Shown piece after piece: positions 6,256 through 24,399 of a stretch of 27,109 nucleotides of DNA. A program made the translations under genes and the position numbers. Position 1 is the stretch's first letter, and each line of letters opens with the position of its first letter. Source of the stretch: an uncultured Macromonas sp. (GTDB lineage Bacteria > Pseudomonadota > Gammaproteobacteria > Burkholderiales > Burkholderiaceae). The stretch lies in NCBI GenBank assembly GCA_946481585.1, contig CAMLOF010000008.1, positions 1 through 27,109 of the forward strand, written 5' to 3'. Under the pieces are notes generated by a model. The model did not search any database, was not told the origin of the DNA, and worked only from the letters and a program-made list of their open reading frames with translations.

Positions 6256-6302
6256 GTGCATACAATTCACCCACCTTCACTTCCCACGAGGATTTGCGAA
6301 AC

Positions 6303-7070
6303 ATGAACAAACTGCTTCTGGCATTCACCCTGACCCTGGGCGCCACCGCCGTTACTGCACAAGCTGCCGACCTCAAAGTCGCCATCGACCCGACCTACGA
6401 GCCCTTCACCTACAAAACTGCTGATGGCAAGCCCACCGGCTTTGATGTAGATATCGCAGAAGCTCTGTGCGCGCAGATCAAGCGCAAGTGCGTGTTCGTT
6501 GAACAGGTGTGGGACAGCATGATCCCCGGCCTGCAAGCTCGCAAGTACGACGTCATCATCAGCTCCATGTCCATGACTGACGAGCGCAGGCGCGTGGTGG
6601 ACTTCACCGACAAGTACTACTTCACCCCCAGCAGCATCGTCGTGAAAGCCGGTACGGCCTACAACGGCCCGGCCTCGCTCAAAGGCAAGAAGATCGGCGT
6701 GCTCAAAGGCAGCACCCAGGAAAAATACGCCATGGGTGAACTCAAGCCCGCTGGCGTGGAAGTCATTCCTTACGAGGCACAGGATCAGGTCTACCTGGAC
6801 ATCAAGGCTGGCCGCCTGGACGGCACCGTGGCCGACAAGGTCGAGGTCAACGGTGGTTTCCTGCGCAAGGACGAAGGCAAGGGCTACGGCTTTGTCGGCC
6901 CCGATCTGGCCCAGCCCAAGTACTTTGGTGACGGCGTGGGCGTGGCACTGCGCAAGGGCCAGACAGATCTGAAAAACCAGCTGAATGGCGCCATCAAGGC
7001 GATCCGCACCAACGGTACTTACGACAAGATTGCCAAGAAGTACTTCGACTTCGACGTCTACGGTAAGTGA
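6303..7070 (+). CDS. Periplasmic basic amino acid-binding protein (HisJ/ArgT family)
   Basis: Solute-binding protein of the Lys/Arg/Orn/His importer. A signal peptide MNKLLLAFTLTLGATAVTAQA precedes the mature start at ADLKVAIDPTYEPFTYK. The ligand-binding signature GFDVDIAEALC and the paired cysteines in CAQIKRKC, which form a disulfide in HisJ and LAO, place it in the basic amino acid group. YYFTPSSIVVKAG, GVLKGSTQEKYA and DGTVADKVEVNGGFL follow the family pattern. It is 255 residues long, close to HisJ (260). The ATG at 6303 has GAGGA ten bases upstream; an in-frame TTG at 6294 is less likely because it would extend the signal peptide's n-region. First gene after the sigma-54 promoter. Arg versus His preference cannot be read from sequence. 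Confidence 0.94.
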   Translation: MNKLLLAFTLTLGATAVTAQAADLKVAIDPTYEPFTYKTADGKPTGFDVDIAEALCAQIKRKCVFVEQVWDSMIPGLQARKYDVIISSMSMTDERRRVVDFTDKYYFTPSSIVVKAGTAYNGPASLKGKKIGVLKGSTQEKYAMGELKPAGVEVIPYEAQDQVYLDIKAGRLDGTVADKVEVNGGFLRKDEGKGYGFVGPDLAQPKYFGDGVGVALRKGQTDLKNQLNGAIKAIRTNGTYDKIAKKYFDFDVYGK

Positions 7071-7074
7071 TTGA

Positions 7075-7761
7075 TTGGACGGCTACTACCTCTCCATTCT
7101 TGAGGGCGCTGTACTGACAGTCGGGGTGTCACTCACCTCGCTGGCAGTGGCGGTCGCGCTGGGGCTTCTGGGCGCCAGCGCGAAGCTTTCTGGCAATCCG
7201 TTGTTGGCGGGTGCCGCTACGGCTTACACAACCCTCATCCGCGGTATTCCCGAGCTGGTTCTGATGCTGCTGGTGTTCTACGGGGGCACCATCGGCCTCA
7301 TCGCCCTGCTTGAGAGCCTGGGGCTGGACCCGAACGTCGACATCAACCCGTTCACAGCGGGGGTGCTGACGATCGGCTTCATTTACGGTGCCTACATGAC
7401 CGAGACGTTCCGGGGTGCCATCCTGGCTATTCCCAAAGGGCAGATGGAAGCTGCCTGGGCATTTGGCATGGGGCGCACGCAGACCTTCTGGCGCATCACG
7501 CTGCCCCAGATGATCCGTTACGCGTTGCCGGGCTTCACCAACAATTGGCTGGTGCTCATCAAGTCCACCGCCCTCATCAGCTTGATCGGCCTGCATGAGA
7601 TGACCTACCGCGCCAAGCAGGCGAGCGCCGCCACGCGGGAGCCATTCATCTTCCTGTTGTTCGCCGCTGCGCTTTTCCTCGCTTTCACCAGCGTGTCTCT
7701 GTGGGTGTTGCGCAAGGTTAACCAGCGCTACAGCCTGGGCACTAAGAAGGTGCAGCTGTGA
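7075..7761 (+). CDS. hisQ: Basic amino acid ABC permease, HisQ type
   Basis: Inner-membrane permease subunit that pairs with HisM. Its length of 228 residues equals HisQ, and blocks such as YTTLIRGIPELVLMLLVFYGG, GFIYGAYMTETFRGAILAIPKG and RYALPGFTNNWLVLIKSTALISLIG follow HisQ closely. The EAA loop that docks the ATPase is EAAWAFGMGRTQTFWRITLP. Several hydrophobic segments are visible. The start is TTG at 7075, four bases after the binding-protein stop; no ATG lies at a suitable place, and starting here gives the family N-terminus (DGYYLSILEGAVLTVG). It overlaps hisM by four bases. Confidence 0.93.
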   Translation: MDGYYLSILEGAVLTVGVSLTSLAVAVALGLLGASAKLSGNPLLAGAATAYTTLIRGIPELVLMLLVFYGGTIGLIALLESLGLDPNVDINPFTAGVLTIGFIYGAYMTETFRGAILAIPKGQMEAAWAFGMGRTQTFWRITLPQMIRYALPGFTNNWLVLIKSTALISLIGLHEMTYRAKQASAATREPFIFLLFAAALFLAFTSVSLWVLRKVNQRYSLGTKKVQL

Positions 7762-8471
7762 ACTGGGAAGTCTTTTCTGATCCAGCCACCTTGGCGCTGT
7801 ACGGCGAGGGGCTGGTCACCACCCTGTCGCTGCTTCTTTCTTCCCTGGCAGTGGGCGCGGTGCTTGCCTTGCTGTTGGCGCTGGCCCTCACCGGCTCTGT
7901 GGCGCCGCTGCGCTGGCTGGCTGGCGCCTACACCTATTGCATTCGAGGCACACCGCTGCTGATTCAGGTCTACCTGATTTACTACGGCCTCGCGCAACTG
8001 GAATGGATCCAGGCGCGCTGGGACGACGTGTGGCCTTGGACGCATTTCAAGGACCCGTTCTTCTGCGCCCTCCTCGCATTTGCGTTGAACAACGCGGGCT
8101 ACACGGCTGAAATGCTGGCTGGTTCGATACGGGAAACCAGTGCGGGCGAACTGGAAGCGGCGCAGGCCATGGGCATGAGCCGTTGGCAGACGCTCAGGCG
8201 GATCGTCCTCCCCAGCGCCTTGCGACGCACATTGCCTGCCTACAGCAATGAAGTTGTGATGATGTTGCACAGCACGAGTTTGGCCAGCACGGTGCCCGCC
8301 ATGCTGGACGTCACCGCTGCCGCCAGCCGCATCTATTCCGATTTCTACCTGCCTTTCGAGGCATACATCTTCGCAGCGGCGATCTACCTCAGCATCACCT
8401 TCATCCTGGTCGGCATCTTCCGCGTGACGGAACGCCGTTACCTGGCCTACCTGGCACCACGCCGGGCCTGA
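7758..8471 (+). CDS. hisM: Basic amino acid ABC permease, HisM type
   Basis: Second permease subunit, 237 residues, with HisM-like blocks [40 protein letters not shown] and the EAA loop [20 protein letters not shown]. The later block [20 protein letters not shown] is also typical. It starts with GTG at 7758 in a GTGA overlap with the hisQ stop, so translation is coupled. The two permeases form the transmembrane channel for substrate delivered by the periplasmic binding protein. It is followed after 23 bp by the ATPase. Confidence 0.93.
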
Positions 8472-8494
8472 GCCCCCGAACCGAATCGAGCGCC

Positions 8495-9271
8495 ATGAGC
8501 ACCCCCGCCCTGAAACTGCAGGTTGAAAACCTGCACAAGCGTTACGGCAACCACGAAGTCCTCAAGGGCGTGTCGCTTTCGGCACGTTCTGGAGACGTCA
8601 TCAGCATCATTGGCAGTTCAGGCTCTGGAAAGAGCACCTTCCTGCGCTGCATCAACCTGCTGGAAAAGCCCTATGAGGGGCGCATCGTGGTGGCTGGTGA
8701 AGAACTCAAGCTGCGACCTGGCAAGGGCGGCGAACTGGAAGCGGCAGACCCACAGCAGTTGCAACGCTTGCGCACCCGGCTGGCCATGGTGTTCCAGAAC
8801 TTCAACCTTTGGGCCCACATGACGGTACTCGAGAACATCATCGAGGCCCCGGTGCACGTACTCAAAGTGTCGAAAGAGCAGGCCGTGCAGACGGCCCGCA
8901 AGTATCTGGATCGCGTGGGACTCAAGGGTATGGAGGACCGCTACCCTTCGCACATGAGCGGCGGCCAACAACAGCGCGTGGCTATTGCCCGCGCACTGGC
9001 GGTGGAACCCGAAGTGATGCTGTTTGATGAGCCCACCAGCGCCCTGGACCCGGAACTGGTGACCGAGGTGCTGCGTGTGATGCAGCAACTGGCCGAAGAG
9101 CACCGCACCATGGTGGTGGTGACGCACGAAATGGGCTTTGCCCGCGAAGTGTCCAACCACCTCATCTTCCTGCACCAGGGCCGCATTGAGGAACAAGGCC
9201 ACCCGCGTGAGGTGCTGGCCAACCCAAAGAGCGAACGGCTGGCGCAGTTCCTCTCTGGCAACCTTAAGTGA
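8495..9271 (+). CDS. hisP: Basic amino acid ABC ATPase, HisP type
   Basis: ATP-hydrolysing subunit of the importer, 258 residues, the same length as HisP. Walker A is GSSGSGKST with K46, the signature is [15 protein letters not shown] (S155), Walker B is [12 protein letters not shown] (D178-E179) and the H-loop is [13 protein letters not shown]. HisP-specific text such as [12 protein letters not shown] and [18 protein letters not shown] is well kept. Last gene of the operon; it faces the DUF1854 gene with stops 28 bp apart. The ribosome site is weak. Confidence 0.95.
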
Positions 9272-9756: not shown

Positions 9757-12042
9757 TCAAGACTCCTCTGCCATCAGGTTGCGTTCGGCTTCGGCCTGCC
9801 GCTGCTGCGCTTCGTACAGGCGCCAGTACGCACCTTCACGGGCAATCAACTCGTCGTGCGTACCCTCCTCCACCTTGCGCCCCTTGTCCATGACGACCAA
9901 CCTATCCGCCTTGCGCAGCGTGGAAAGGCGGTGCGCGATGGCAATGGTGGTGCGGCCGCGCACCAGGTTGTCCAGCGCTTTCTGGATTTCCTTTTCCGTC
10001 TCGGTGTCCACCGCCGACGTGGCTTCGTCCAGAATGAGGATGCGAGGGTCGATCAGCAGGGCACGGGCGATGGAAATACGCTGGCGTTCGCCGCCAGACA
10101 GCCCCTGCCCCCGCTCACCCACCAGCGAGTCGTAGCCCTGGGGCAGGCGCAGGATGAACTCGTGCGCATGCGCCGCACGCGCGGCGGCGATGATCTCCTC
10201 GCGGGTAGCATCAGGCTTGCCGTAGGCAATGTTCTCGGCGATGGTGCCGAAGAACAGGAAGGGCTCCTGCAACACCAGGCCAATGTGGCGGCGGTAGTCG
10301 GCCACGCGCAGCGAGCGCAGATCCACGCCATCCACCAGAATGGCGCCATCGGCCACGTCGTAGAAACGGCAGATCAGGTTGACCAGCGTGCTCTTGCCCG
10401 AGCCGCTGTGGCCGACCAGGCCGATCATCTCACCAGGCTGCACGGTCAGATTCAGGCTCTGGATGACGGCGCGATTGCCGTAGCGGAAACCCACGTCACG
10501 AATTTCCAGCTTGCCTTGCACCCGCTCCAGCTTTTGCGGGTTCACAGGTTCTGGCACGCTGGACACATGGTCCAAGATGTCGAAGATGCGCTTGGCGCCG
10601 GACGCCGCTTTCTGCGTGACCGAGACGATGCGGCTCATCGAATCCAACCGGGTATAGAAACGCCCGATGTAGGCCAGGAAGGCGGTGAGCACACCCACGG
10701 TGATGTCACCCTCGGCCACCAGCCAGATGCCAAAACCCCAGACAACCAACAGCCCAATCTCGGTTAACAACGACACCGTCGGCGAAAACAACGACCACAG
10801 ACGGTTGAGCTTGTCGTTGACTTCCAGGTTGTGCCGATTGGCATCACGGAAGCGCTGGGCCTCGCGAGCCTCTTGCGCAAAGGCCTTGACCACGCGAATG
10901 CCCGGAATGGTGTCTGCCAGCACGCTGGTGACTTCGGACCACACGCGGTCGATCTTCTCGAAACCCGTGCGCAGGCGGTCGCGCACCACATGGATGAGCC
11001 ATGCAATGAATGGCAGCGGCACCAGCGTGGCCAGGGCCAGCGACGGATTGATGGAGAACAGAATCACCGCCGTCATGAAGATCATGATCACGTCGGTGGC
11101 AAAGTCCAGCAGGTGCAGCGACAGGAACACGTTGATGCGATCGGTCTCGGAGCCGATGCGCGCCATCAGGTCACCCGTACGTCGCCCGCCGAAATATTCG
11201 AGCGAGAGGTTGAGCAGGTGCTCGTAGGTGGTGGTGCGCAGGTCTGCCCCGATGCGCTCTGACACCAGTGCAAGGATGTATGTTTTCGCCCAGCCCAGTC
11301 CCCAAGCCAGCAGCGCCGATCCAAACAACCCACCCAGCAGCAAGCCAACCAGGCTCACGTCGATCTGCTGCCCGCTCTGGTAGGGAATCAGCACATCGTC
11401 CATCAGAGGGATGGTGAGGTATGGCGGCACCAAAGTGGCCGCCGTCGACGCCAGCGTCAAGAGAAATCCTGACAGCAACTGCCAGCGGTACGGATGGGCA
11501 AACCGCCACAGGCGCAGCAGAGTCCAGGTTGACGGTGGTGTATGCACTACCTGGGCACACACGCCACATTCATCCTCATCCGGATCGATAGGCGACTGGC
11601 AACGGGGGCACAACTCCAGCTTGGCCAACTGCAAGGGCTTGCCTTCGACCTGTTCAAGCAGATTGGCCTCGAACTGCTCGACCAGACGCGTGGCGGGCAG
11701 GTGTCGGCCCAGGGTGTAGCGCCAGACGGCGAGTCTGACACCGCCTTGAACCAGCTCCAAAGTGCCTACGCCATTGTGGTCGTTGTGCAGCAGCTCCATG
11801 CCTTGCTGCAGCGCCCAGCTCTTAGCCTGCGGCGCCCCACCTTCCTGAGGCACCCACCATAGCTGTTGCCCCGCCACAACGAGCAGGCTGGAGTGGAAAG
11901 ACAGTTCGGCGTCCAGGTCGAGTTCCAGCCAGGCTTGCGCCTGGGGAACATGACCGGCTGGTTCCCACGCGGACAGCGCGGCACCGCGCCATGCCGAGGG
12001 AAAACCGTCGGGCAAACCCGCTGGTTCAGGAATTAACGGCAT
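9757..12042 (-). CDS. ABC transporter (fused permease-ATPase) with N-terminal zinc ribbon, cyanophycin-associated
   Basis: 761-residue half-transporter of the exporter (type IV) class. Residues 1-140 form an extra soluble domain without a recognised family. Residues 145-162 hold a zinc ribbon, C-x2-C-x10-C-x2-C (C145, C148, C159, C162). The six-helix membrane domain covers about 180-470, beginning FAHPYRWQLLSGFLLTL. The ATPase has Walker A GHSGSGKST near residue 545, signature LSGGERQRISIARAL near 647, Walker B ILILDEATSAVD near 669 and H-loop IAIAHRLSTL. I chose the ATG at 12042 (MPLIPEPAG); the open frame to 12117 adds residues of no recognisable character. It is divergent from cphA' and coupled to DUF1854, which suggests a role in cyanophycin metabolism. 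The substrate is unknown. Confidence 0.88.
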   Translation of the reverse strand: MPLIPEPAGLPDGFPSAWRGAALSAWEPAGHVPQAQAWLELDLDAELSFHSSLLVVAGQQLWWVPQEGGAPQAKSWALQQGMELLHNDHNGVGTLELVQGGVRLAVWRYTLGRHLPATRLVEQFEANLLEQVEGKPLQLAKLELCPRCQSPIDPDEDECGVCAQVVHTPPSTWTLLRLWRFAHPYRWQLLSGFLLTLASTAATLVPPYLTIPLMDDVLIPYQSGQQIDVSLVGLLLGGLFGSALLAWGLGWAKTYILALVSERIGADLRTTTYEHLLNLSLEYFGGRRTGDLMARIGSETDRINVFLSLHLLDFATDVIMIFMTAVILFSINPSLALATLVPLPFIAWLIHVVRDRLRTGFEKIDRVWSEVTSVLADTIPGIRVVKAFAQEAREAQRFRDANRHNLEVNDKLNRLWSLFSPTVSLLTEIGLLVVWGFGIWLVAEGDITVGVLTAFLAYIGRFYTRLDSMSRIVSVTQKAASGAKRIFDILDHVSSVPEPVNPQKLERVQGKLEIRDVGFRYGNRAVIQSLNLTVQPGEMIGLVGHSGSGKSTLVNLICRFYDVADGAILVDGVDLRSLRVADYRRHIGLVLQEPFLFFGTIAENIAYGKPDATREEIIAAARAAHAHEFILRLPQGYDSLVGERGQGLSGGERQRISIARALLIDPRILILDEATSAVDTETEKEIQKALDNLVRGRTTIAIAHRLSTLRKADRLVVMDKGRKVEEGTHDELIAREGAYWRLYEAQQRQAEAERNLMAEES

Positions 12043-12257
12043 GTTGCAAATAATTTTTGGGGTTGAAGACACGCAAGACGGCCAACTGGATACACAATCA
12101 CGTTTCGATGGAATCACGTGACACGGGTATGAAATCCGGCTCAGGCAAACGGCTTTCGCGTCGCCGGTCGCGGGTCCAGTCGCTGACGTACAGGATTGTA
12201 AGGCTGCTACCTCCCCGCAGAACCGACATCGAAACTGCCAGTTGCCCGTTGCCTGAC

Positions 12258-12286
12258 TTGCTGCCTTTGAGCGGCAGGGCTATGCT
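12258..12286 (+). promoter_or_regulatory. Candidate sigma-70 promoter for cphA'-cphA
   Basis: TTGCTG (12258-12263) and TATGCT (12281-12286) are separated by 17 bp. Transcription would start near 12293, leaving a leader of only about nine bases before the cphA' ATG and no Shine-Dalgarno site. The rest of the 259-bp divergent gap (12043-12301) shows no gene. For the ABC gene on the minus strand, an AT-rich ATTATT lies close to its ATG with TTGCGT 16 bp upstream, which is a weaker candidate. Confidence 0.45.
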
Positions 12287-12301
12287 GAGCCTCATCTCAC
12301 C

Positions 12302-14476
12302 ATGAACCACAAGACCATCAAGCTGCTGCGCATGAGCTATCTGCGCGGGCCTAACATCTGGACCTACCGGCCAGCCATGGAAGCCCTGATCGACATTGGC
12401 GATCTGGAGGACTCCCCCTCCAACACCATACCGGGGTTCTACGAACGCCTGACCACATGGCTGCCAGGCCTGGTGGAACACCACTGCGGCGTAGGAGAGC
12501 GCGGCGGTTTTCTGCAGCGGCTGCGCGACGGTACATGGCCCGGCCACATCATGGAACACGTGGCCATTGAGCTGCAGAACATGGCGGGTATGCAGACTGG
12601 CTTTGGCAAGGCACGCTCCACCGAACAGCGCGGCGTGTACAAGGTGGTCATCCGCACACGGCAGGAAGAAGTGGGCCGTCAAGCCTTGATTGACGCTCGC
12701 GACCTCGTGATGGCTGCCATCGAAGACCGCGCGTTCGACGTCCAGGCCAGTGTGCAGCGACTCAAGGGCCTGATCGACCGGCACGCCTTGGGCCCCAGCA
12801 CGGCCAGCATCGTGGATGCAGGCAGCCAGCGCAAAATTCCCTCCATCAGACTGACCGACGGCAATCTGGTGCAACTGGGTTACGGCATCAAACAGCGCCG
12901 CATATGGACGGCAGAGACCGACCGCACCAGTGCGATTGCCGAGACCATTTCGCGTGACAAGGACCTGACCAAGCGGCTGCTGTCCGCTTGTGGCGTACCC
13001 ATTCCCGAGGGGCAGGTCGTTGACAGTCCGGCGCAGGCCTGGGAGGCAGCGCAAGACATTGGCTTGCCAGTGGTCGTCAAACCCAGCGATGCCAACCACG
13101 GTCGGGGCGTCTCCCTTGATCTGCGCACCCAGGAGGCGGTTGAAGCCGCCTACGCCCTGGCCGACGCGGAAGGCTCAGACGTGATCGTCGAGCGCTTCAT
13201 CCCCGGTCAGGAACACCGGCTGCTGGTGGTGGGCAACCGTCTGGTTGCCGCTGCTCGGGGCGAACAGGCGTGCGTCACGGGCGACGGCAAGAGCACGGTG
13301 ATGCAGCTGATCGAAAGCCAGATCAACACCGACCCCCGCCGAGGCGAGGAGGAAGAGTACCCGTTGGACACCATCCGTCTGCCGGAGAACTCCCTGGTGA
13401 TGCTCGAGCTGTCTCGCCAGAACCTGACGCCGGAAAGCGTGCCCGAGGCCGGACAAGTCGTTTTGGTGCAGCGCACCGGCGTGATGACGCACGACATCAC
13501 CGACGAGGTGCACCCTGACGTAGCCGAGACGGCGGCACTGGCAGCACGTGTCGTTGGGCTGGACATTGCGGGCATCGACCTGGTGGCCACCGACATTTCC
13601 CGACCCTTGGCGGAGCAAGGCGGTGCCATTGTCGAGGTGAACGCTGGCCCTGGCCTGCTCATGCACCTCAAGCCCGCGGTTGGGAAACCCAGACCGGTAG
13701 GCGAAGCTATCGTGGAACACCTCTTTGGCACGAAAGACGATGGCCGCATTCCTGTTGTCGGCATCACCGGCTCGCAAGAGACCACGCCGATCGCACTGCT
13801 GCTGGGCTCCCTGATTCAGCGCGCCGGACTCACTTGCGGTGTGGCCTGCAGCGAAGGGCTCTTCGTCGAGATGCAGCCGATCGACACCGCTCGCCCATCC
13901 GACTGGGAGGGGGGCCAACGCATTTTGATGAACCGCTGTGTTGAAGCGGCCGTTCTGGAGAACTCGCCGCGCAGTATTCTGGACGATGGCTTGTCCTACG
14001 ACCGGTGCCAGGTGGGCATCGTCACGGGCGTCACCGAGCCACAAGGTCTGCAGGACCACCATATCTTGACCCTTGAGCAGATGCGCAACGTGCTGCGCAC
14101 CCAAGTGGACGTGGTGCTCCCCCAGGGCTGTGCCGTGCTCAATGCTGACGACGAAGTGTGTGCAGGCCTTGCAGAGCTTTGCGACGGTGACGTGATTTTC
14201 TACAGCACCGCAGCTGATCATGACCTTCGCAAGGCGCACTGCGACGCCGGGCGCCGCTTCTTGCTGGTCAAGGACAACAAGGTGATGCTGTGGCGCAACC
14301 AGAACGCCACAGCTGTGCTGGACCTCACGCACCCGGTCGTGAAGGAGTTGCTCGACGGGCAGCTGAGCCTGTCCGCATTGCTCGCTGCTACGGCTGCGGC
14401 GTTGGCGCTTGAACTCCCCCCTGCCCTGGTGCGTGCCGGCGTTGAAACCGCTGACCGCCTGTTCTCTCATTCCTGA
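12302..14476 (+). CDS. cphA': Cyanophycin synthetase-like protein CphA' (Mur-ligase lobe degenerate and truncated)
   Basis: 724-residue relative of cyanophycin synthetase, encoded directly upstream of cphA as in Ralstonia eutropha. The N domain (about 1-160) keeps a His/Glu motif GHIMEHVAIELQ with H82, E85, H86 and E90. The ATP-grasp (G) domain (about 210-475), which adds Asp in the family, looks intact: VVVKPSDANHGRGVSLDL, IVERFIPGQEHRLLVVG, EVNAGPGLLMHL. The Mur-ligase-like domain after residue 480 has GITGSQETT where active enzymes have GTNGKTTT, so the P-loop lysine is T494. The C-terminal Mur lobe is absent, which makes the protein 137 residues shorter than CphA. Arg addition by this chain is therefore unlikely. 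Twenty bases separate it from cphA. Confidence 0.93.
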   Translation: MNHKTIKLLRMSYLRGPNIWTYRPAMEALIDIGDLEDSPSNTIPGFYERLTTWLPGLVEHHCGVGERGGFLQRLRDGTWPGHIMEHVAIELQNMAGMQTGFGKARSTEQRGVYKVVIRTRQEEVGRQALIDARDLVMAAIEDRAFDVQASVQRLKGLIDRHALGPSTASIVDAGSQRKIPSIRLTDGNLVQLGYGIKQRRIWTAETDRTSAIAETISRDKDLTKRLLSACGVPIPEGQVVDSPAQAWEAAQDIGLPVVVKPSDANHGRGVSLDLRTQEAVEAAYALADAEGSDVIVERFIPGQEHRLLVVGNRLVAAARGEQACVTGDGKSTVMQLIESQINTDPRRGEEEEYPLDTIRLPENSLVMLELSRQNLTPESVPEAGQVVLVQRTGVMTHDITDEVHPDVAETAALAARVVGLDIAGIDLVATDISRPLAEQGGAIVEVNAGPGLLMHLKPAVGKPRPVGEAIVEHLFGTKDDGRIPVVGITGSQETTPIALLLGSLIQRAGLTCGVACSEGLFVEMQPIDTARPSDWEGGQRILMNRCVEAAVLENSPRSILDDGLSYDRCQVGIVTGVTEPQGLQDHHILTLEQMRNVLRTQVDVVLPQGCAVLNADDEVCAGLAELCDGDVIFYSTAADHDLRKAHCDAGRRFLLVKDNKVMLWRNQNATAVLDLTHPVVKELLDGQLSLSALLAATAAALALELPPALVRAGVETADRLFSHS

Positions 14477-14496
14477 ACCGACCAAGGACCCGTCCC

Positions 14497-17082
14497 ATGG
14501 ACGTCTCTCGCATCCGCGCCCTCCGGGGGCCTAACCTGTGGTCACGCACCACTGCCATCGAAGCCATCGTTCATTGCACGCCGGAAGAGTCCGATCTCTC
14601 GAACCAGACCGCCTTTGTCGAACGGCTGCGTGAGCGTTTCCCGGGCATTGGCGCCCTGCCCGAGCCCACAGCTCATGGCGTGGTGTCCATGGCCCATGCC
14701 CTCGAACTGGCCACGCTTGCACTGCAAACGCACGCTGGTTGCCCCATCAGCTTCAGCCGCACCACTCCCGCACCGGAAACCGGTGTTTTCCAGGTGGCCG
14801 TGCAGTACACCGAGGAAGAAGTTGGCCGACTGGCGCTTGATCTGGCCGTTGCCTTGCTGCGGTCTGCGGTTGATGACACGCCGTTCGACACAGCTGACGC
14901 AATCGCCAAGCTCAAGGAACTCGACGAAGACATTCGCCTTGGCCCTTCAACAGGCTCCATCGTTGACGCAGCGGTGGCGCGCGGCATCCCCTACCGCCGG
15001 CTGACGCAAGGCAGTCTGGTGCAGTTTGGCTGGGGCAGCAAGCAACGGCGCATCCAGGCGGCTGAATGCGACACCACCAGCGCCATTGCCGAAGGCATTG
15101 CCCAAGACAAGGAACTGACGAAGAAGCTGCTCCATGCGGCAGGCGTACCCGTCCCTCTCGGTCGCCCTGTGAGCGACGCGGAAGATGCCTGGAATGCTGC
15201 TCAGGCACTGGGCGGCGCCGTGGTGATCAAGCCCCGCGATGGCAACCAAGGCAAGGGCGTCACCGTCAACATCAGCACGCGCGAGCAGGTGATTGCCGCC
15301 TACCAGAATGCTCAGCAGGTGAGCGACGACGTGATGGTCGAAAGGTATCTGCCAGGCATTGACTATCGCCTTCTGGTGGTGGGCAAGCAACTGGTGGCTG
15401 CAGCGCGTCGTGACCCGCCACTTGTCATTGGCGACGGCGAACATACCGTGCGCCAGCTTGTGGAGACTGTCAACGCAGACCCCCGCCGGGGCGACGGCCA
15501 TGCCACACCGCTGACCAAGATTCGCTTGGACGACATTGCCATCGACCGCCTGCGTGAACAGGGCCTGACCCCCGAATCCATTCCTGCACGGGGTGTGCGC
15601 GTGGTGCTGCGCAACAACGCCAACCTGTCCACCGGCGGCTCTGCCACCGACGTGACGGACGAGGTGCACCCCCAGGTGGCAGCCCGTGCTGTGGCGGCTG
15701 CGCTCATGGTGGGACTCGACATCTGCGGCGTGGACGTTGTCTGCGAAAACGTCATCGAGCCCCTGGAGACTCAGCACGGCGGTGTTGTTGAAGTGAATGC
15801 CGCCCCAGGGCTTCGCATGCACATCAGCCCCTCTTTCGGTAAGGGCCGACAGGTTGGCGAGGCCGTCATCAACCACATGTTCCCGAACGGTGAAGATGGA
15901 CGCATTCCCGTGGTGGCAGTGACTGGCACCAACGGCAAGACCACCACGGTGCGCCTGACCGCGCACCTGCTGCGCAGCCACGGCCTTCGTGTGGGCATGA
16001 CCAACACCGACGGCGTTTACGTCAACGGCCGCCAGACCGACAGCGGTGACTGCAGCGGCCCCCGCAGCGCACGCAACGTGCTGGCACACCCCGATGTGGA
16101 CGCCGCGGTGTTTGAAACTGCGCGTGGTGGCCTGCTGCGTGAGGGGTTGGCCTACGACCGTTGCCAGGTGGCTGTGGTCACCAACATCGGTTCGGGCGAC
16201 CACCTCGGGCTGAACTACATCACCACGGTTGAAGACCTGAGCGTGCTCAAGCGCGTGATCGTGGTGAACGTGGCCCCCACCGGCATGGCCGTTCTGAACG
16301 CTGCGGACCCGCAAGTTGCCAGGATGGCCAACCATTGCCCTGGCCAGGTGACCTTCTTTGGCCCGAACGAGCACCATCCCGTGATTGCCACGCACCGCGC
16401 ACTAGGCAAACGGGTGGTCTTCGTGGACGACGGCCATGTCGTTGCAGCGGAAGGGACCTTCCAGGTCCGCATTCCCTTGTCGCAGATTCCGTTCACCCGA
16501 AACGGCACGATCGGCTTCCAGGTAGACAACGCCATGGCGGCCATTGGCGCTGCCTGGGCCCTGGACGTTCCCTGGAACACGGTGCTCCAAGGGCTGTTCA
16601 CCTTCGTGAGTGACGCGCACGCCGTGCCAGGCCGCTTCAACCTGTTCGACTACAAGGGCGCCACCGTGATCGCCGATTACGGCCACAACCCAGACGCCAT
16701 CCAGGCGCTGAGCGACGCCGTTCAGCAGATGCCTGCCCGCGAGCGCATGGTGGTCATCAGCGGTGCTGGCGACCGTCGCGACGAGGACATTCGTGACCAG
16801 ACCCGCATTCTGGGCAAAGTCTTTGACGAAGTGATCCTCTACCAGGACGCCTGCCAGCGAGGACGCGAAGACGGTGAAGTGATCGGGCTGCTGCGTGAAG
16901 GCCTTGAGGGTGCGACGAAGACGCAGCGAGTCAGCGAAATCCGTGGCGAGTTCAACGCCATCGACACAGCGCTGGAACGCCTGCAGCCCGGCGACCTCTG
17001 CCTGATCTTGATCGACCAGGTGCAGGAGGCGCTGGACCACATCGCGGCACGCGTGCAGGCCGCGAATCCGGTCAACGCCTGA
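14497..17082 (+). CDS. cphA: Cyanophycin synthetase CphA
   Basis: Makes cyanophycin, the insoluble nitrogen reserve with a poly-Asp backbone and Arg side groups, in the cytoplasm using two ATP sites. It has 861 residues, the normal CphA1 length. The ATP-grasp domain shows VVIKPRDGNQGKGVTVNI, MVERYLPGIDYRLLVVG and EVNAAPGLRMHI. The Mur-ligase domain has an intact P-loop VTGTNGKTTT (K481) and the C-terminal lobe DYGHNPDAIQAL (H730) with VISGAGDRRDEDI. In the N domain the His/Glu motif seen in CphA' is replaced by GVVSMAHALELA (V62, M65, A66), with only E70 kept. AAGGA (14484-14488) supports the ATG. Its stop abuts the stop of the convergent peptidase gene with no base between. Confidence 0.96.
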   Translation: MDVSRIRALRGPNLWSRTTAIEAIVHCTPEESDLSNQTAFVERLRERFPGIGALPEPTAHGVVSMAHALELATLALQTHAGCPISFSRTTPAPETGVFQVAVQYTEEEVGRLALDLAVALLRSAVDDTPFDTADAIAKLKELDEDIRLGPSTGSIVDAAVARGIPYRRLTQGSLVQFGWGSKQRRIQAAECDTTSAIAEGIAQDKELTKKLLHAAGVPVPLGRPVSDAEDAWNAAQALGGAVVIKPRDGNQGKGVTVNISTREQVIAAYQNAQQVSDDVMVERYLPGIDYRLLVVGKQLVAAARRDPPLVIGDGEHTVRQLVETVNADPRRGDGHATPLTKIRLDDIAIDRLREQGLTPESIPARGVRVVLRNNANLSTGGSATDVTDEVHPQVAARAVAAALMVGLDICGVDVVCENVIEPLETQHGGVVEVNAAPGLRMHISPSFGKGRQVGEAVINHMFPNGEDGRIPVVAVTGTNGKTTTVRLTAHLLRSHGLRVGMTNTDGVYVNGRQTDSGDCSGPRSARNVLAHPDVDAAVFETARGGLLREGLAYDRCQVAVVTNIGSGDHLGLNYITTVEDLSVLKRVIVVNVAPTGMAVLNAADPQVARMANHCPGQVTFFGPNEHHPVIATHRALGKRVVFVDDGHVVAAEGTFQVRIPLSQIPFTRNGTIGFQVDNAMAAIGAAWALDVPWNTVLQGLFTFVSDAHAVPGRFNLFDYKGATVIADYGHNPDAIQALSDAVQQMPARERMVVISGAGDRRDEDIRDQTRILGKVFDEVILYQDACQRGREDGEVIGLLREGLEGATKTQRVSEIRGEFNAIDTALERLQPGDLCLILIDQVQEALDHIAARVQAANPVNA

Positions 17083-18009
17083 TCAGCCCCAGAACAGCAG
17101 CGCTTCGCGCTGCTGCACCATGAGTTGGACCTGCCTGCCCACGGGCAGCAGGACCTTGGTGGGCACGTGGCCGAACGGCAGGCCGGTCAACACCGGCACC
17201 TTGACCTGCGTGCGCAGCCAATCCACCACACTGGCCAGCTTGAAGCCCTTGTCGTGCGGGGTGAGCTGAAAGCGGTTGAACTGCCCGAGGATGATGGCCT
17301 TTTGCTTGCCCAGAACACCTGCGTGCAGCAATTGCGTGAGCATGCGTTCAATTCGGTAGGGGTGCTCGGCCACATCCTCCAGGAAAAGCAGGCCGTTCTT
17401 GACTTCAGGGAAGTATGGCGTGCCAACCATTGAGGTCAGCACCGACAGGTTCCCGCCCCACAGCGTAGCTTTGTTCACGCCCCAGCCGTCTTCGGTACCC
17501 ACCGCCGGGTGCGCCTTCACGTCTGCCACAGGCAGCCGCCAGCCTGTGCCCTCACCGTGGCCATCCACCAGGTCATCGAAGCAGGCCTGCATGATCTCGT
17601 CAGGCTCGCCCTCGCAAGCCCAGTCCTCCATAAGCGCGGGGCCTGCCCACGTGGCAACACCTTCGCGCGCCAGAAGAGCCAGCTGCATGGCCGTGAAGTC
17701 GCTCAGACCGACGAAGGAAGTGCCTTTTTCCACCGCCTTGGCCAGTTTGGCGTATGGCAGCTTGGGCAGCAACCGGGTCAGGCCGTAGCCACCGCGGGTG
17801 GTCAATGCCACATCGGCACCGCTTGAAGCAGCCCGGGCAATGGCTGCCAGACGCATTTCATCGTCACCGGCAAAACGGGTGTGGCTGGCAAGTGCAGAGG
17901 GGTCCAGCTCCACGTCATGGCCTTGCGCCTTGAGCCGCGCCACCGCACGCTTGAAACCGGTCTTGTCGCGCACTGCGCCACTGGGAGAGTAGATATATAG
18001 ATGTGCCAT
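17083..18009 (-). CDS. ldcA: LD-carboxypeptidase family protein (peptidase S66)
   Basis: Serine peptidase of family S66, whose members cut the terminal D-Ala from murein tetrapeptides (LdcA) or inactivate microcin C (MccF). Of the catalytic triad, S103 is in FVGLSDFTAMQ, E211 in LLFLEDVAEHPYR and H281 in GLPFGHVPTK. The ATLWGGNLSVL segment is also family-typical. It is 308 residues with no signal peptide, so cytoplasmic murein recycling is the likely setting. I chose the ATG at 18009 (MAHLYIYSPSGAV, a family-like first strand); the open frame to 18087 overlaps the tadA gene and adds nothing family-like. It begins seven bases after the tadA stop, so the two are probably co-transcribed. A role in cyanophycin turnover has no sequence support, since cyanophycinase is family S51. 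Confidence 0.9.
   Translation of the reverse strand: MAHLYIYSPSGAVRDKTGFKRAVARLKAQGHDVELDPSALASHTRFAGDDEMRLAAIARAASSGADVALTTRGGYGLTRLLPKLPYAKLAKAVEKGTSFVGLSDFTAMQLALLAREGVATWAGPALMEDWACEGEPDEIMQACFDDLVDGHGEGTGWRLPVADVKAHPAVGTEDGWGVNKATLWGGNLSVLTSMVGTPYFPEVKNGLLFLEDVAEHPYRIERMLTQLLHAGVLGKQKAIILGQFNRFQLTPHDKGFKLASVVDWLRTQVKVPVLTGLPFGHVPTKVLLPVGRQVQLMVQQREALLFWG
17095..17115 (+). other. Strong hairpin just past the cphA stop, inside the peptidase gene
   Basis: CAGCAGCGC (17095-17103) and GCGCTGCTG (17107-17115) form a 9-bp perfect stem with a TTC loop, 12 bases after the cphA stop. No T-tract follows. On the other strand the same bases encode QQREALL near the end of the S66 peptidase. It may pause RNA polymerase or protect the cphA mRNA end. 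Confidence 0.4.
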
Positions 18010-18016
18010 GAGGGCA

Positions 18017-19114
18017 TTATTGACCAGCGCGGCCACCAGACATGCCATGGGTCCGCCAAGCCCTTTGCGCCGCGCGGTGCCCTTCATCCGGATAGGGCAT
18101 GTTCTTCAAGGCGCTGGACAGCACACCCGCTTGCCAGCCTGCCTGCGTGTCGAGAGCTGCGGCATGTGAGCCGAGTGCAAGCACCAAGGCATTGGCCAAT
18201 TGCTCCTGCCCAGGCGCTACCGCCAGGCGAAGGCGGTCAACACCAAGTCGCTGCAGCCATTGCATCAGCCCCTGCACGTGGGTCTGCAATGAATGCCAGT
18301 TTGCTTTTTTCGGCTTGTCGCTTTGCCCGAAGCCTATGAGATCGGGCACCAGCACTCGCTCGCCCTGACGTTCCCGAGCCAAGGCCCATTCGGCCCACTG
18401 TGGCCACCAGCCGTCCGAGCCGTGTAGCGCAAGCCAGACAGTGCCAAGCCCTCCCGCCCCTACATCCAGGTAATGGAAACGAAGGCCTTCAAAAGCCGGA
18501 ATGTCTTGCAGCATTCTGCTCGCGCCACGAAGTATGGACCAGTGTTCCCAAGCAGCATCAAAGGCATGTGTCGGTGTGCGCAGGGCATCTTCTCTCAGCG
18601 GCTCGGCATGCAGCTTCGCGCTGCGTCGCCTACCCTCGAAGAACGTGCGCATCACGTCGGCACAATCGTTGGCCAACACGCCAGCAACCACCTTGGTATG
18701 GTGGTTGAGCTCTGGCACGGCAAAAAGGTTGAGCACCGACCCCGCAGCACCTGTCTTGGGCTCGGTAGCGCCAAAAACCACCCTTTTCACTCGGGCGTGC
18801 AGCAAGGCCTGCGCGCACATGGCACAGGGCTCCAGGGTCACGTAGACCTCGCAATCGTCAAGGCGGTAGTTGTCAAGGGCGTGCGCCGCTTCACGCAATA
18901 CCTGGATTTCTGCGTGGGCTGTGGGGTCCCGCAGGCTGATGGGCGCGTTGTGGGCACAGGCAAGCACCCGCACTTCGCCACTTTCCCGGCGAACCAGAAC
19001 GGCGCCTACAGGTACCTCGCCACGTTCCGCTGCCAGCTTCGCCTGTGCGAGCGCCAAGCGCATGCAAGTCTCGTCGTCGAGCGCGCTGGGGCTTGGGGTG
19101 TGGTGTTCGTGCAT
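18017..19114 (-). CDS. tadA: tRNA adenosine-34 deaminase TadA fused to a degenerate alpha/beta-hydrolase domain
   Basis: Residues 10-160 are a complete TadA, which makes inosine at the wobble base of tRNA-Arg. It shows GEVPVGAVLV, the zinc/proton-shuttle motif HAE (H67, E69) and PCAMC with zinc ligands C97 and C100. Residues about 205-345 resemble the front half of haloalkane dehalogenase-like hydrolases: FHYLDVGAGG, LALHGSDGWW (oxyanion HG) and VLVPDLIGFGQSDKPK. The nucleophile elbow, normally QDWGG or GxSxG, reads APGQEQ, and the later part of the fold is missing. The added domain therefore cannot be a normal hydrolase. No stop or frameshift separates the parts. I chose the ATG at 19114 (MHEHHTPSPS); in-frame ATGs at 19153 and 19186 are possible. 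It is divergent from the receiver gene. Confidence 0.92.
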   Translation of the reverse strand: MHEHHTPSPSALDDETCMRLALAQAKLAAERGEVPVGAVLVRRESGEVRVLACAHNAPISLRDPTAHAEIQVLREAAHALDNYRLDDCEVYVTLEPCAMCAQALLHARVKRVVFGATEPKTGAAGSVLNLFAVPELNHHTKVVAGVLANDCADVMRTFFEGRRRSAKLHAEPLREDALRTPTHAFDAAWEHWSILRGASRMLQDIPAFEGLRFHYLDVGAGGLGTVWLALHGSDGWWPQWAEWALARERQGERVLVPDLIGFGQSDKPKKANWHSLQTHVQGLMQWLQRLGVDRLRLAVAPGQEQLANALVLALGSHAAALDTQAGWQAGVLSSALKNMPYPDEGHRAAQRAWRTHGMSGGRAGQ

Positions 19115-19632: not shown

Positions 19633-22600
19633 ATGGATCGACCCGCCTGCCCTCCTCCGCCATATGCACCCGCCCCGGCCCCGGCGTGGAAGCCAGGGAA
19701 CGGCCGGGAGCGCAACTGGAGTTGGCGGGAATGGCTTGCCCTAGCGATTCTGTCTGCAGGCCTGGCCTGCACCGCCTATGTTCACCAACTGGCACAACGC
19801 TATGTTGACGCGCAATCGCGTGAACGCTTCGCTCTGGCCAGCAAGGACTTTTTTACGACGCTGGAACAGTCCCTGAAGAGGCAAGCAGACCAGATGCTGG
19901 GCTTGCGAGTGCTGTATGAGGCCTTGTCCGACACGCCAGATGCCGCCCTGCACCGCAGCGTACGCACTCGCGATATTCTGAGCCAACAACCCGGCCTGGT
20001 GGCCCTTTATCACGTCAAGGGGCAGACCAAAGCCGAACTTCTTGGCGACTTGAGGGTTGAAACACTCCAAGGAACCGGGGGTCAAACCACCTTGGCAGCC
20101 TTGCACAGCAAGTCCGGCTTTCAGGCGCTGAAGCAGGCACTTGAGAGCGGGCAAACAAGTGTCACGCCTTTGATGGACATGTTCCCCGGCACGTCCAAGC
20201 GCTGGGGATTTTTCCTGGTGACGCCTGTACAAGCCTCGTCACCTCCAGATACGTCAAATGCGAACAGGCAGGGCACATGGCTGGTGGCAGCGGTACTTTT
20301 GAACGACTGGCTGCAGGCGGCCACCCAAGCATTGCCAGCAGGCATGGATGTGGAAGTCCTGGGCGGAACGGAGCTGCTTCGGCCACACCTTCTTTTCGAC
20401 GCCGACGGCCATTTGACCGCCGATGGTGGAAACGGCCCGCCAATGGCTCGGCCGCTTGAGCAGACCAAAACGTTTCGTTTAGGCGAGCACCCTTTGGTCG
20501 TGAGAGCGAGCACCACCCCTGTTTTTGAAAATGCGGTAGACCGCTGGACACCCCTGACCGCTGCAGCCTTGGGCACGATCCTTAGCGTGCTGGCGGCGTT
20601 CTCTGCCTGGCTGACCTTGAGCGCCCGGTACAGAGCCGAACGCCGAGCCTTGGAACTGGCTGCAGACTTGGAGCTGATGTCACGCGTGGCCAGGTACACA
20701 GGCAGCATGGTGGCCGTGACAGACACTCAACACCAGATCACCTGGGTGAATGAAGCGTTCATACGTCAGACCGGCTTCACACCAGAAGATGCCTATGGCA
20801 AGGAACTCGCCGAGCTGCTCGTCGTGGCTGCAGCGGCCCCCGAGACACTCCCGTCAATTCGACGAGCGCTGACACAACGCGCTGCGCTGGAGCTGGAGAC
20901 TGTTTTTTGCGGCAGGCAGGGCAAGACACGGCGCGTTTCCATGGAGATGCGGCCCATGGCGGACGCCACGGGCAACTTCCAAGGACACATCAACATCCTC
21001 GCCGATATCGAAGAGCGTCGTCAGGACCAGGATGCCCTGGAACAGGCATTGCGGGAACAGAAGGGACTGCGCAACATTCTGGATCAGCATGCAATCGTCT
21101 CGGAGACCGACCCTGCAGGCACGATCACCCGGGTGAACGACAAGTTCGTGCAGATCAGCGGCTACGCCCAGGCTGAACTTGTGGGCAAAAACCATCGCGT
21201 CATCGGCGCCGGCCAGCATCCCAGCGTTTTCTGGGAGCAGATGTGGCGCACGATCCGTTCGGGCCGACCCTGGCGGGGTGAAATCTGCAACCGGGGGAAA
21301 AACGGCCACCTTTATTGGGTGGACAGTCTGATTGCCCCATTGCATGACGGGTCTGGGCAGATCGAGCGGTTCCTGTCCATCCATACCGACATCACCCAGC
21401 ACAAACAGGCACAGGCCGCGCTTGTATCAAGCCAGGACATGTTGACCCGAACCAGCCGCATTGCCGGTATAGGCGGGTGGTTCACCGACTTGCAAGCACG
21501 GCGGGTGTACATGTCGGTCGAATGCATGCAGATTTTCGGGCTTGATCCAGACTGGAGCAAACCCATCGAACCCACACTGGGGTACTTTGTTCCTCAACTC
21601 CAGCCCCAGGTGTTGGAGGTGATCGAAAGCGCCGTCTACGCCCGCGAAGCATTTGACATGGTCGTGACCTTCACGTCGGCGCAGGGGCGCAGTCGCTGGG
21701 TGAGGATGCTTGGGGAAGCCGATGCGGCAGAAGATGGCCAGCCGCACAGGATGGTGGGCGCGGCGCAGGACATTACCGTCCAGGTTCTGGCGCAGCGCCG
21801 TATCGAAGCGAGCGAACGGACCCTTCGATCTGCCATTGATGCAGTGGACGAGGCCTTTGCGCTCTACGACCCGCAGGAGCGACTGGTCTTCTGCAACGAC
21901 AAGTACCGCGAGATCTACCCCCGGTGCCGCGATGTGATCATGGTGGGCACTCGGTTCGAGGACATTGTGCGTGCTGGCGTGGAAAGGGGGGAATTCCCCG
22001 CCGCTCAAACGGACCCGAAGGCCTGGACTGAGCAACGGCTGCGGAACTTCCGCGCCCCGAGTTCCGAAGAGGAAGTGCAGACTCGCGATGGTCGCTGGTT
22101 CAAGGTGGTGAGCCGAACGACGCAAGACGGCTTCCACGTCGGCTTCCGTGTGGACATCACGGACATGAAGCGCGCACTGGACGCCGCAGATGCCGCGTCT
22201 CGCAGCAAGAGCCAGTTCCTGGCCAACATGAGCCACGAAATCCGCACGCCGTTGAATGCCATCCAAGGCATGCTCAAGCTGCTGGACTACACAGGACTCA
22301 CGACTCGCCAGAGTGATCTGGTAGACAAGGCAGCCAGTGCATCGCGTTCGCTGCTGGGCATCCTCGACGACATCCTTGATTTCTCCAAGGTCGAGGCAGG
22401 CAAGATGCGTCTGGCTGCGGAGCCATTCATTTTGGACGGGCTGTTGCGCGACCTCTCGAACATCCTGGCTGGAACACTGGGCCAGAAGCAGCTGGAGCTG
22501 ATCTACGACATCGACCCCCGGCTCCCCGCTTCGTTCACCGCCGACGCGATGCGGCTCAAACAGGTGCTCATCAACCTGTGTGGCAACGCCATCAAGTTCA

Positions 22601-24399
22601 CACCTTCAGGCTCGGTGACCTTGCGGCTGCACCTTGATGCTCTTGCCAACGGCGTAGCCAACGTAGGCTTTGAGGTACGGGACACGGGCATCGGGATCAC
22701 TGCAGAGCAGCGCGAGCGCATCTTCAACGGGTTTACACAGGCAGAGGCGTCCACGGCCAGACTTTACGGCGGCACCGGGCTGGGGTTGGTCATCAGCCAG
22801 CGGATCGTGAGACTCATGGGGGGCGAACTGCGCGTTGACAGCCGCCCTGGCGAAGGCAGCTCCTTCAGCTTTCAGCTGCCATTGCCCGTGCATGATGCCG
22901 CTCATTCAACCGCTTCGCCCTCTGGCGAGATGCGAGCCCTGCTGGCAGACGGGCACCCAGATACTCGCCGGGCATTGACCGTCATGCTGCAAGCCCTAGG
23001 GTGGCAAGTCCACGCGGTGGCCACGGCTGGGGCCGCTGCAGAGTGGATGGGTGAACGAGCACAAACCGGACAACGCGTGGACGTGCTCCTCATCGACCCG
23101 GAACTTCCGGCAGCGGATGAACTGTTTGAAAAACTGCCCGCTGTACGGCCCACAACCGTTTGGCTTGGCACAGGCTTGTCGGCCCGCCTGGCCCGTACCC
23201 CGCCCGGCACCTGTGAGCTGACCAAGCCCGTGACGGCGCACATGGTTGCGGACGCAGTGAACCGCCTGCGCGCGGGCAACACCCATGTGGCGCTTGACCG
23301 CAAAGTACCATCGACCAGACTTGCAGGACTCCGTCTGCTATTGGTTGAAGACAACCCTATCAACCAAGAGGTGGCCCAAGAGATGCTGCAGCGAGAAGGC
23401 GCCAGGGTCAGCGTGGCACCTAACGGGGAAATCGGCGTCCAGCAGATCTCGGCCCCCGGCGCGCAGTTCGACCTGGTGTTGATGGACATGCAAATGCCCG
23501 TCATGGATGGTTTGCAGGCCACAAGGTTGATTCGCAGTCAACCGGCTCACGCCAACTTGCCCATCGTTGCGATGACAGCCAACGCCATGCCCGGGGACCG
23601 GCAGTCCTGCCTGGAAGCGGGAATGAACGACCATGTAGGCAAACCGTTCGAGTTGGACGAACTGGTCAGTGCCATCTTGCGCAACCTCGATCGGCCATCG
23701 CATCTACAAGAGGCAGTGGCTCCAGCTGCAAGCTCCAGCAGCCAAACCTGTGCATTGGACGCAGAACAGGCCATCCGGCGCCTAGGTGGCGACAGTGAGT
23801 TCTACGCCCGCCTGCTCATCAGTTTCGGTGCCACCGCCAGGCACGCAGCAAATGCAGCCGCCACGGACTGGAAGGAATTGCGCAGATCATCTGCTGCAGC
23901 CTCCATCCACAAGCTGAAAGGGAGCGCAGCGGCCGTTGGAGCGACGAACCTCACCGAGGCCTGCACGGCCCTGGAACTCAGCCTCAAAAACAGCGACGCC
24001 GCCCCGCCCCCAGAAGAACCTGAGCTCTTTGCCCGCTTGAACGATGCGTTGGACGAGTCTTTGCTGGCACAAGAGCAGTGGCTGGCGCAGCACAACGCGC
24101 GCATCACCCCTCTCGCCTCAAACAACGATCAAGCCCTTCGGCAGGGGCTGCTTGCCTTGAGAGAGGCGCTTGAAACCGGTGACATGCGCGCCTTTGAGCT
24201 TCACGAGCAACTGCAATACCAACGCCCCCCTGCCAGCCCGTTGGCGTGGCGGACACTTGACGAAGCAGTGGAACGCTTTGACGTGGGAGCGGCGCTGGCC
24301 GCCCTGGACGCGCTGAACAAAGAAACTGTACCGGCCACACCCCCCTCTTCCACCGGCGTTGAAGCAAGGAACCCAGGCACAATCGACCTGAGCAGCTGA
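19633..24399 (+). CDS. Hybrid sensor histidine kinase: CHASE-like sensor, four PAS, HisKA/HATPase, two REC, HPt
   Basis: 1588-residue membrane sensor kinase. TM1 is near 33-51 and TM2 near 307-331, enclosing a periplasmic CHASE-like sensor (about 60-295). Cytoplasmic PAS domains follow near 350-460, 482-600, 603-720 and 728-850. HisKA has the phosphorylated H868 in [11 protein letters not shown]. HATPase shows the N-box LCGNAIKFT near 980, DTGIGI near 1017 and GTGLGL. The first receiver (about 1100-1220) keeps D1155 (LLIDPEL) and the Lys (LTKP), but its acidic pocket reads ADGHPD and looks degenerate. The second (about 1235-1350) is intact, with VEDNPIN and D1285 (VLMDMQM). HPt has H1426 in [14 protein letters not shown] helical C-terminal stretch (about 1490-1575) follows. 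The ligand is unknown. It lies 3 bp after the receiver gene. Confidence 0.93.

Follow-up and report, generated by a model that had tools for sequence, protein, structure and literature searches.

Two adjacent genes of an uncultured Macromonas sp., cphA' and cphA, encode paralogues of the cyanophycin synthetase CphA1. They lie on contig CAMLOF010000008.1, in a stretch of 27,109 nucleotides (nt), hereafter called the window; all positions are counted on it. The first gene, cphA' (12302–14476, + strand), specifies a truncated protein of 724 amino acids (aa). The second, cphA (14497–17082, + strand), specifies a full-length protein of 861 aa. The two are parted by 20 bases, a terminator scan of the + strand from 12050 to 17200 found no terminator-like site, and an Rfam scan of the pair gave no match.

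Both proteins match the cyanophycin synthetase family, although only CphA passes the 850-bit cut-off of TIGR02068 (979.7 bits, versus 714.3 for CphA'). Pfam places the cyanophycin N domain and an ATP-grasp domain in each, and the Mur ligase middle and C-terminal domains in CphA only. The N domain of CphA' covers residues ~7–160 (12320–12781, + strand), as delimited by PF18921 at residues 30–140 and by alignment to SuCphA1. An AlphaFold2 model of CphA' has a mean predicted local distance difference test score (pLDDT) of 87.9, and its top structural matches are CphA1 chains. The CphA model is middling (pLDDT 76.7, predicted template modelling score 0.55) and was relied on solely for the register of one helix.

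Complementary active sites in CphA' and CphA

Residues with published roles in SuCphA1 and TeCphA1 (PMC9262961, PMC9427784) were mapped onto both proteins by alignment; the roles of the Asp-recognition residues of the G domain come from the second of these sources. In CphA' the metallopeptidase site of the N domain is intact: H60, C62, R73, H82, E85, H86 and E90 (Cx19HxxEH; 12479–12571, + strand). H82, E85, H86 and E90 correspond to SuCphA1 H79, E82, H83 and E87, while H60, C62 and R73 correspond to H57, C59 (the third metal ligand) and R70. A preliminary description of this DNA, made from the sequence alone, had picked out the first four of these residues, as the alignment bears out, and had overlooked the other three.

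The other two domains of CphA' are altered. Its G domain retains the ATP residues K220, K260, D426 and E445, plus H266 and R306, but has lost the Asp pocket: SuCphA1 R323 is replaced by G320 and R458 by L453, and S396 is deleted with its loop. This Asp-recognition loop (SuCphA1 389–399; residues 390–396 of CphA', 13469–13489, + strand) is short by five residues, the place of the gap varying between alignments. A missing loop in CphA' was reportedly noted already by Adames in 2013. The M-domain P-loop is destroyed, reading GSQETT (13769–13786, + strand; SuCphA1 K499 replaced by T494), SuCphA1 D585 and H586 are Q581 and G582, and the protein ends before the M lid, in agreement with the preliminary description, which had found neither a Mur-ligase P-loop nor a C-terminal lobe. 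Measured against a three-site CphA1, CphA' therefore has the N site and lacks the Asp-recognition residues, the M site and the lid.

CphA has kept what CphA' has lost. Its G domain carries the Asp-recognition loop NLSTGG (N376, S378; 15622–15639, + strand) and is complete save for two replacements, SuCphA1 H267 by Q251 and E215 by G200. Its M domain has the P-loop GTNGKTT (K481; 15925–15945, + strand) and the catalytic residues D568 and H569 (SuCphA1 D585 and H586; 16198–16203, + strand), so that the full Mur ligase ascribed to it earlier stands. Its N-domain motif is a remnant, H67, E70 and L71 (14695–14709, + strand; placed by alignment and helix model). The first His and the Glu are kept, the second His is gone (SuCphA1 H83 is L71), E87 is A75, R70 is lost, and the segment bearing SuCphA1 H57 and C59 is deleted; with these changes the N site is dead. 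CphA thus has the G and M sites of a CphA1 and lacks the N site that goes with the primer-independent class.

The preliminary description had set V62, M65 and A66 of CphA against H82, E85 and H86 of CphA'. An ungapped block common to both proteins (offset 15, anchored at Q77 of CphA and Q92 of CphA') pairs H67, E70 and L71 with those three residues, so the earlier assignment was out by five. The predicted helices agree in offset (CphA 65–79, CphA' 80–94).

The division is general among paired genomes

We used CphA as a query against 300 genomes of the order to which the Roseateles locus L065 belongs, unselected for the N-domain motif. Matches at an E value of 1e-90 or better occurred in 114 genomes, of which 110 were read; G001 was covered through L065 in the named set described below, and G123, G146 and G239 were left out. 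Of the 110, seven encode a lone CphA1 and 97 a single CphA' together with a single CphA; in one the CphA is in two pieces (L194), and in five the locus lacks a complete CphA' at a contig end (L120–L123, L218). In all 97 loci with one of each, CphA' is upstream of CphA on the same strand.

The preliminary description had proposed scoring the N motif and the P-loop in many pairs. All 96 pairs with a CphA of more than 800 aa have the N site in CphA' alone and the Asp pocket in CphA alone. The M site (K499, D585, H586) is confined to CphA in 86 pairs and present in both proteins in ten. Those ten CphA' proteins are 816 to 898 aa long and, being longer than 800 aa, keep at least part of the lid, which is shortened in L157 and L159; in the other 88 of 98 survey CphA', all of 800 aa or less and all without the C-terminal lid, the M site is broken. 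The catalytic D585/H586 pair is present in all 100 survey CphA of more than 700 aa.

Single residues tell the same story. All seven N-site residues are identical in 98 of 98 survey CphA', and the alignment-free pattern Cx17–24HxxEH occurs in 98 of 98 CphA' and in 0 of 100 CphA, three of which have a bare HxxEH without the Cys. R323 and R458 are replaced and S396 is deleted in 98 of 98 CphA'. Because an Asn aligns at position 394 inside the shortened loop in 87 of the 98, loss of the Asp pocket was judged by R323, S396 and R458. The preliminary description had also allowed that CphA' might add Asp; this was rejected, since the Asp-recognition residues are changed in every survey CphA'. Its statement that both proteins keep an ATP-grasp domain holds for the fold and the ATP residues and fails for the Asp pocket of CphA'.

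Two further collections agree. A named set of 80 loci, each with a CphA', was found by peptide patterns; as one of these patterns contained the motif, a fair test has to come from the survey and not from this set. At least part of CphA is visible in 73 of the 80 loci, and the other seven end 752 bases or less from CphA'. The full motif is present in 80 of 80 CphA' and in 0 of 68 CphA of more than 600 aa. In a protein database, 118 of the 120 CphA' matches listed carry the motif in residues 1–190; of the remaining two, one carries it beyond that range and the other is missing its N-terminus. Among the CphA matches listed of at least 800 aa, 0 of 119 have it. Complementary loss of active sites is general in these pairs, and the distribution of the motif is not chance.

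Sequence constraint follows the sites. By mean pairwise identity in the named set (79 CphA', 67 CphA), the N-site region is better conserved in CphA' (0.756) than in CphA (0.540), while the reverse holds for the M core (0.492 versus 0.723), as a divided function predicts. The survey set gives the same ordering.

Enzymes encoded by single genes generally keep the motif. It is present in the lone CphA1 of 7 of 7 such genomes in the order survey. When a lone CphA1 was the query in a phylum survey of 398 genomes, 29 had matches at 1e-90 or better (two matches in 20, one in nine), and 9 of 9 single-match genomes have the motif. Nine of 22 plasmid records with a match were read, and seven of the eight single full-length CphA1 enzymes on them have it; the exception is that of Chryseobacterium L231. 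Other arrangements were also seen. The gene following a lone CphA1 gene at twelve loci (L111, L112, L114–L117, L230, L232, L236–L239) belongs to the Mur ligase family and has an M-type site. A Legionella adelaidensis plasmid (L235:3983–5872) encodes a short protein in which the CphA N motif and the M site are intact and a G domain is apparently absent; genes for cyanophycinase and isoaspartyl peptidase come next.

CphA' and CphA (28 rows each) form one clade apiece in phylogenetic trees (support 100), and a branch with support 100 splits both, together with the enzyme of genome G488, from 25 other rows. G488 lies outside the order. The only CphA found in it, truncated where its contig stops, has the N, G and M residues that were checked and a Q at position 267; an identical database protein is named Magnetococcales. 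Of the 120 relatives of this enzyme listed, several named Planctomycetes, all 120 combine the N motif, the G residues (scored as K220, K261, R309, R323, N394, S396, D431, E450 and R458) and the M residues in one protein. Among 48 genomes of the class or order of G488, G488 alone yielded such an unsplit relative. The best tree groups the unsplit relatives with CphA' (support 95), while CphA' plus CphA as a single clade is not rejected by the approximately unbiased test (p-AU 0.32). The duplication may have preceded or followed the split from the unsplit relatives.

Neighbouring genes and cyanophycin breakdown

Upstream of cphA' and divergent from it lies a gene for an exporter-type ATP-binding cassette (ABC) transporter with ABC_membrane and ABC_tran domains (9757–12117, − strand). 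It matches NF052233, the NCBIfam family "cyanophycin metabolism-associated ABC transporter" (CphA_assoc_ABC), at 1385.8 bits against a cut-off of 880, and is related by sequence to the exporters SAV1866 and MsbA and to ABCB proteins. A homologue (662–1303 bits) stands just upstream of cphA' on the opposite strand in 51 of 51 named loci with full flanks. All 28 pair genomes tested have an NF052233 match above its cut-off, and so does G488, whose gene is likewise divergent from the single CphA; the 15 other single-CphA1 genomes and 20 genomes lacking a CphA match have none above it. Of the 28 pair genomes, 20 have the gene next to the pair in divergent orientation and four (G073, G121, G228, G254) have it upstream on the strand of the pair; in G044 it is divergent about 8 kb off, and in G156, G193 and G215 it is hundreds of kb off. 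With these non-adjacent cases the linkage is strong but not strict.

Other neighbours are less constant. An LdcA-like peptidase S66 gene (17083–18087) is convergent with cphA and abuts its end, and occurs as a neighbour in 8 of 51 named loci. A functional tie of the pair to the adjacent LdcA and TadA genes was considered and rejected, each occurring in just 8 of the 51. Further off are an amino-acid-type ABC importer set (6294–9271; a family-3 solute-binding protein, two permeases and an ATPase) and a hybrid sensor kinase of 1588 aa with PAS domains (19633–24399), which passed no equivalog cut-off among the 25 families listed of 154.

Recognised breakdown genes are scarce in pair genomes. Cyanophycinase (TIGR02069) is above cut-off in 7 of 64 pair genomes versus 15 of 16 single-CphA1 genomes, G488 being the sole one of the 16 without it. 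The combination of two cphA genes and no cyanophycinase in such genomes was noted earlier (PMC5178258, PMC5670224). Three of the seven positive pair genomes have the gene beside a second, different CphA-like locus. At three such second loci (L128, L129 and L130, in G066, G279 and G308) two full-length CphA-like genes are convergent, both products lack the N motif and have intact G and M sites, and a cyanophycinase gene is beside them; contig C61 of G005 (Duganella) resembles them. In 35 pair genomes plus G488, IadA (TIGR01975) was found in 0 of 36 and Asparaginase_2 (PF01112) in 9 of 36; most of these genomes therefore have no recognised gene for the known final step in degrading cyanophycin. 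These last absences are not special to pairs, since cyanophycinase, IaaA and IadA were all missing from 141 of 1614 CphA1 genomes in a published survey (PMC10206079). Single gene absences also mean little here, as genome completeness is not given, and related genomes are not independent.

A possible division of cutting and synthesis

We consider it likely that cphA'-cphA is a duplicated CphA1 in which CphA' acts as an endo-cyanophycinase that makes primers for a primer-dependent CphA. CphA' would be a dedicated zinc enzyme whose N domain cuts nascent polymer, presumably cyanophycin, into short pieces, and would no longer add Asp or Arg. CphA would be the synthase, its G domain adding Asp and its M domain Arg; with its own cutter lost, it should need primers supplied by CphA' in trans. 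The two would probably work in a mixed complex formed through their conserved G domains.

Published trans-priming experiments make this mechanism plausible. As reported in PMC9262961, N-domain mutations cut or abolish primer-independent activity and affect primer-dependent activity little. In the same account, SuCphA1 made dead in G and M and added in trans allows the T. morbirosei enzyme TmCphA1 to synthesise robustly without primer, and the isolated N domain, carrying two solubilising mutations, likewise enables primer-free synthesis. By analogy, CphA' resembles a natural counterpart of the G- and M-dead SuCphA1, and CphA one of the primer-dependent enzyme. Primer-free synthesis was somewhat faster with all three sites in one protomer (PMC9262961); this speaks for keeping cutter and synthase near each other and so, if anything, for a mixed complex. 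The same source points out that with both activities in one enzyme their balance is not settable by expression level; with the activities in two genes, the split removes that limit. The divided labour suggested in the preliminary description is in this respect upheld, the complementary loss being general and priming in trans having precedent, while the Asp addition it allowed CphA' is not.

The components compare closely with known enzymes. SuCphA1 (PDB 7lg5/7txv) shares the three-domain ancestry; CphA' has all seven of its N-site residues and CphA its G and M sites, save H267Q and E215G, but SuCphA1 holds the three sites on one chain and the pair holds them in two genes. The T. morbirosei CphA1 (7lgn), like CphA, has no N-site motif but retains G and M; the difference is that it was studied by itself. 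CphA2 (PDB 7ta5, 8fxh/8fxi) resembles CphA' in being a CphA1 relative of similar length with a retained G domain, and differs in that it has no N motif, which CphA' has, and in that CphA' is nearer CphA1. The "Group 1" arrangement of tandem cphA genes and an ABC transporter without cphB (PMC10687191), and the side-by-side CphA1 and CphA2 of PMC5178258, are apparently the same kind of cluster; the accessible part of the "Group 1" account does not describe which copy holds which active site. A search of the open-access literature, with most subscription journals outside it, found no report of complementary active-site loss in the pair. The tandem genes with an ABC gene and without cphB were already known.

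Several observations weigh against our proposal. Survey CphA' keep K220, K261, D431 and E450 (97 or 98 of 98), H267 (95 of 98) and R309 (98 of 98), and the G-domain identity of CphA' (0.695) is nearly that of CphA (0.736); a pure hydrolase does not explain this conservation, and the domain may serve to hold the pair together and to bind polymer. In CphA, Q stands at the H267 position in 98 of 100 survey proteins, and H267A is reported to inactivate the SuCphA1 G site (PMC9262961). This Q need not mark a dead G site, because 87 of the 120 listed unsplit relatives carry it with all other sites present. Loss of the N site requires no partner: the T. morbirosei CphA1, whose primer dependence was studied in the lone enzyme (PMC9262961), is motif-less, as is the single CphA of Chryseobacterium L231 (3632–6298), with no CphA' among the annotated genes of the surrounding 9.6-kb stretch. 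The product, too, is unproven, since overexpression of R. eutropha H16 cphA, at home or in E. coli, reportedly gave no detectable cyanophycin (PMC8560796); none was seen in wild-type R. eutropha either (PMC11362209).

These points leave room for other roles of the pair, some of which also involve cutting. CphA' might be mainly a mobilising depolymerase, the cell's only recognised polymer cutter, with breakdown regulated apart from synthesis. The scarcity of cyanophycinase in pair genomes (7 of 64, versus 15 of 16 single-CphA1 genomes), as in the earlier reports (PMC5178258, PMC5670224), and the counts for IadA and Asparaginase_2 favour this role. We nevertheless think it unlikely: the tandem of cphA' and cphA, identical in order and strand in 97 of 97 loci, is well suited to joint expression; endo-cutting by itself frees no amino acids, and no partner exo-enzyme was recognised; the unsplit G488 also lacks cyanophycinase; and, given the 141 of 1614 CphA1 genomes without breakdown genes (PMC10206079), the absences of IadA and Asparaginase_2 are not pair-specific. 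The whole cluster might, alternatively, export an Asp-Arg oligopeptide, which CphA would build, CphA' dice and the ABC transporter release, with no granule stored. Such export would fit the distribution of the ABC gene (all 28 pair genomes tested and G488, none of the 15 other single-CphA1 genomes), the scarcity of cyanophycinase where a pair is present, and the reported lack of polymer from overexpressed R. eutropha genes; we regard it as quite unlikely.

Two further alternatives deny CphA' a cutting role. It could be a CphA2-like ligase whose altered G pocket joins another amine, such as a beta-Asp-Arg dipeptide, in place of Asp. Conserved ATP residues and R309/H267 beside changed free-Asp-binding residues would suit such a ligase, as would the broken M site of the 88 CphA' of 800 aa or less and the rank of CphA2 structures next after CphA1 in Foldseek. 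CphA2, however, is described as lacking the N-site motif (PMC9262961), which 98 of 98 survey CphA' keep, and CphA' is much closer to CphA1 than to CphA2 (453 versus 194 bits), so that we give this role only a slim chance. That CphA' is a decaying duplicate with no role of its own beyond scaffolding CphA is highly improbable: the broken M site of those 88 lid-less proteins would agree with decay, but the seven N-site residues are invariant in 98 of 98 CphA', and the N-site region is the best conserved part of CphA' compared over all rows.

Primer supply by CphA', which we favour over these alternatives, bears on how cyanophycin synthesis is understood. CphA1 has been described as a self-sufficient maker of its own primers, with the N-site motif in 83% of nr70 CphA1s, and those lacking the N site have been classed as primer-dependent (PMC9262961). 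Across much of one large bacterial order, CphA would then be site-less only because its cutter is the next gene. If true, the pair would be a natural separation of polymer synthesis from primer generation, in which cutting and building are separately adjustable, and some earlier attempts at expression might have lacked just this pairing of CphA with CphA'. The role of the accompanying ABC exporter would also call for explanation, as would the frequent absence of cyanophycinase from these genomes.

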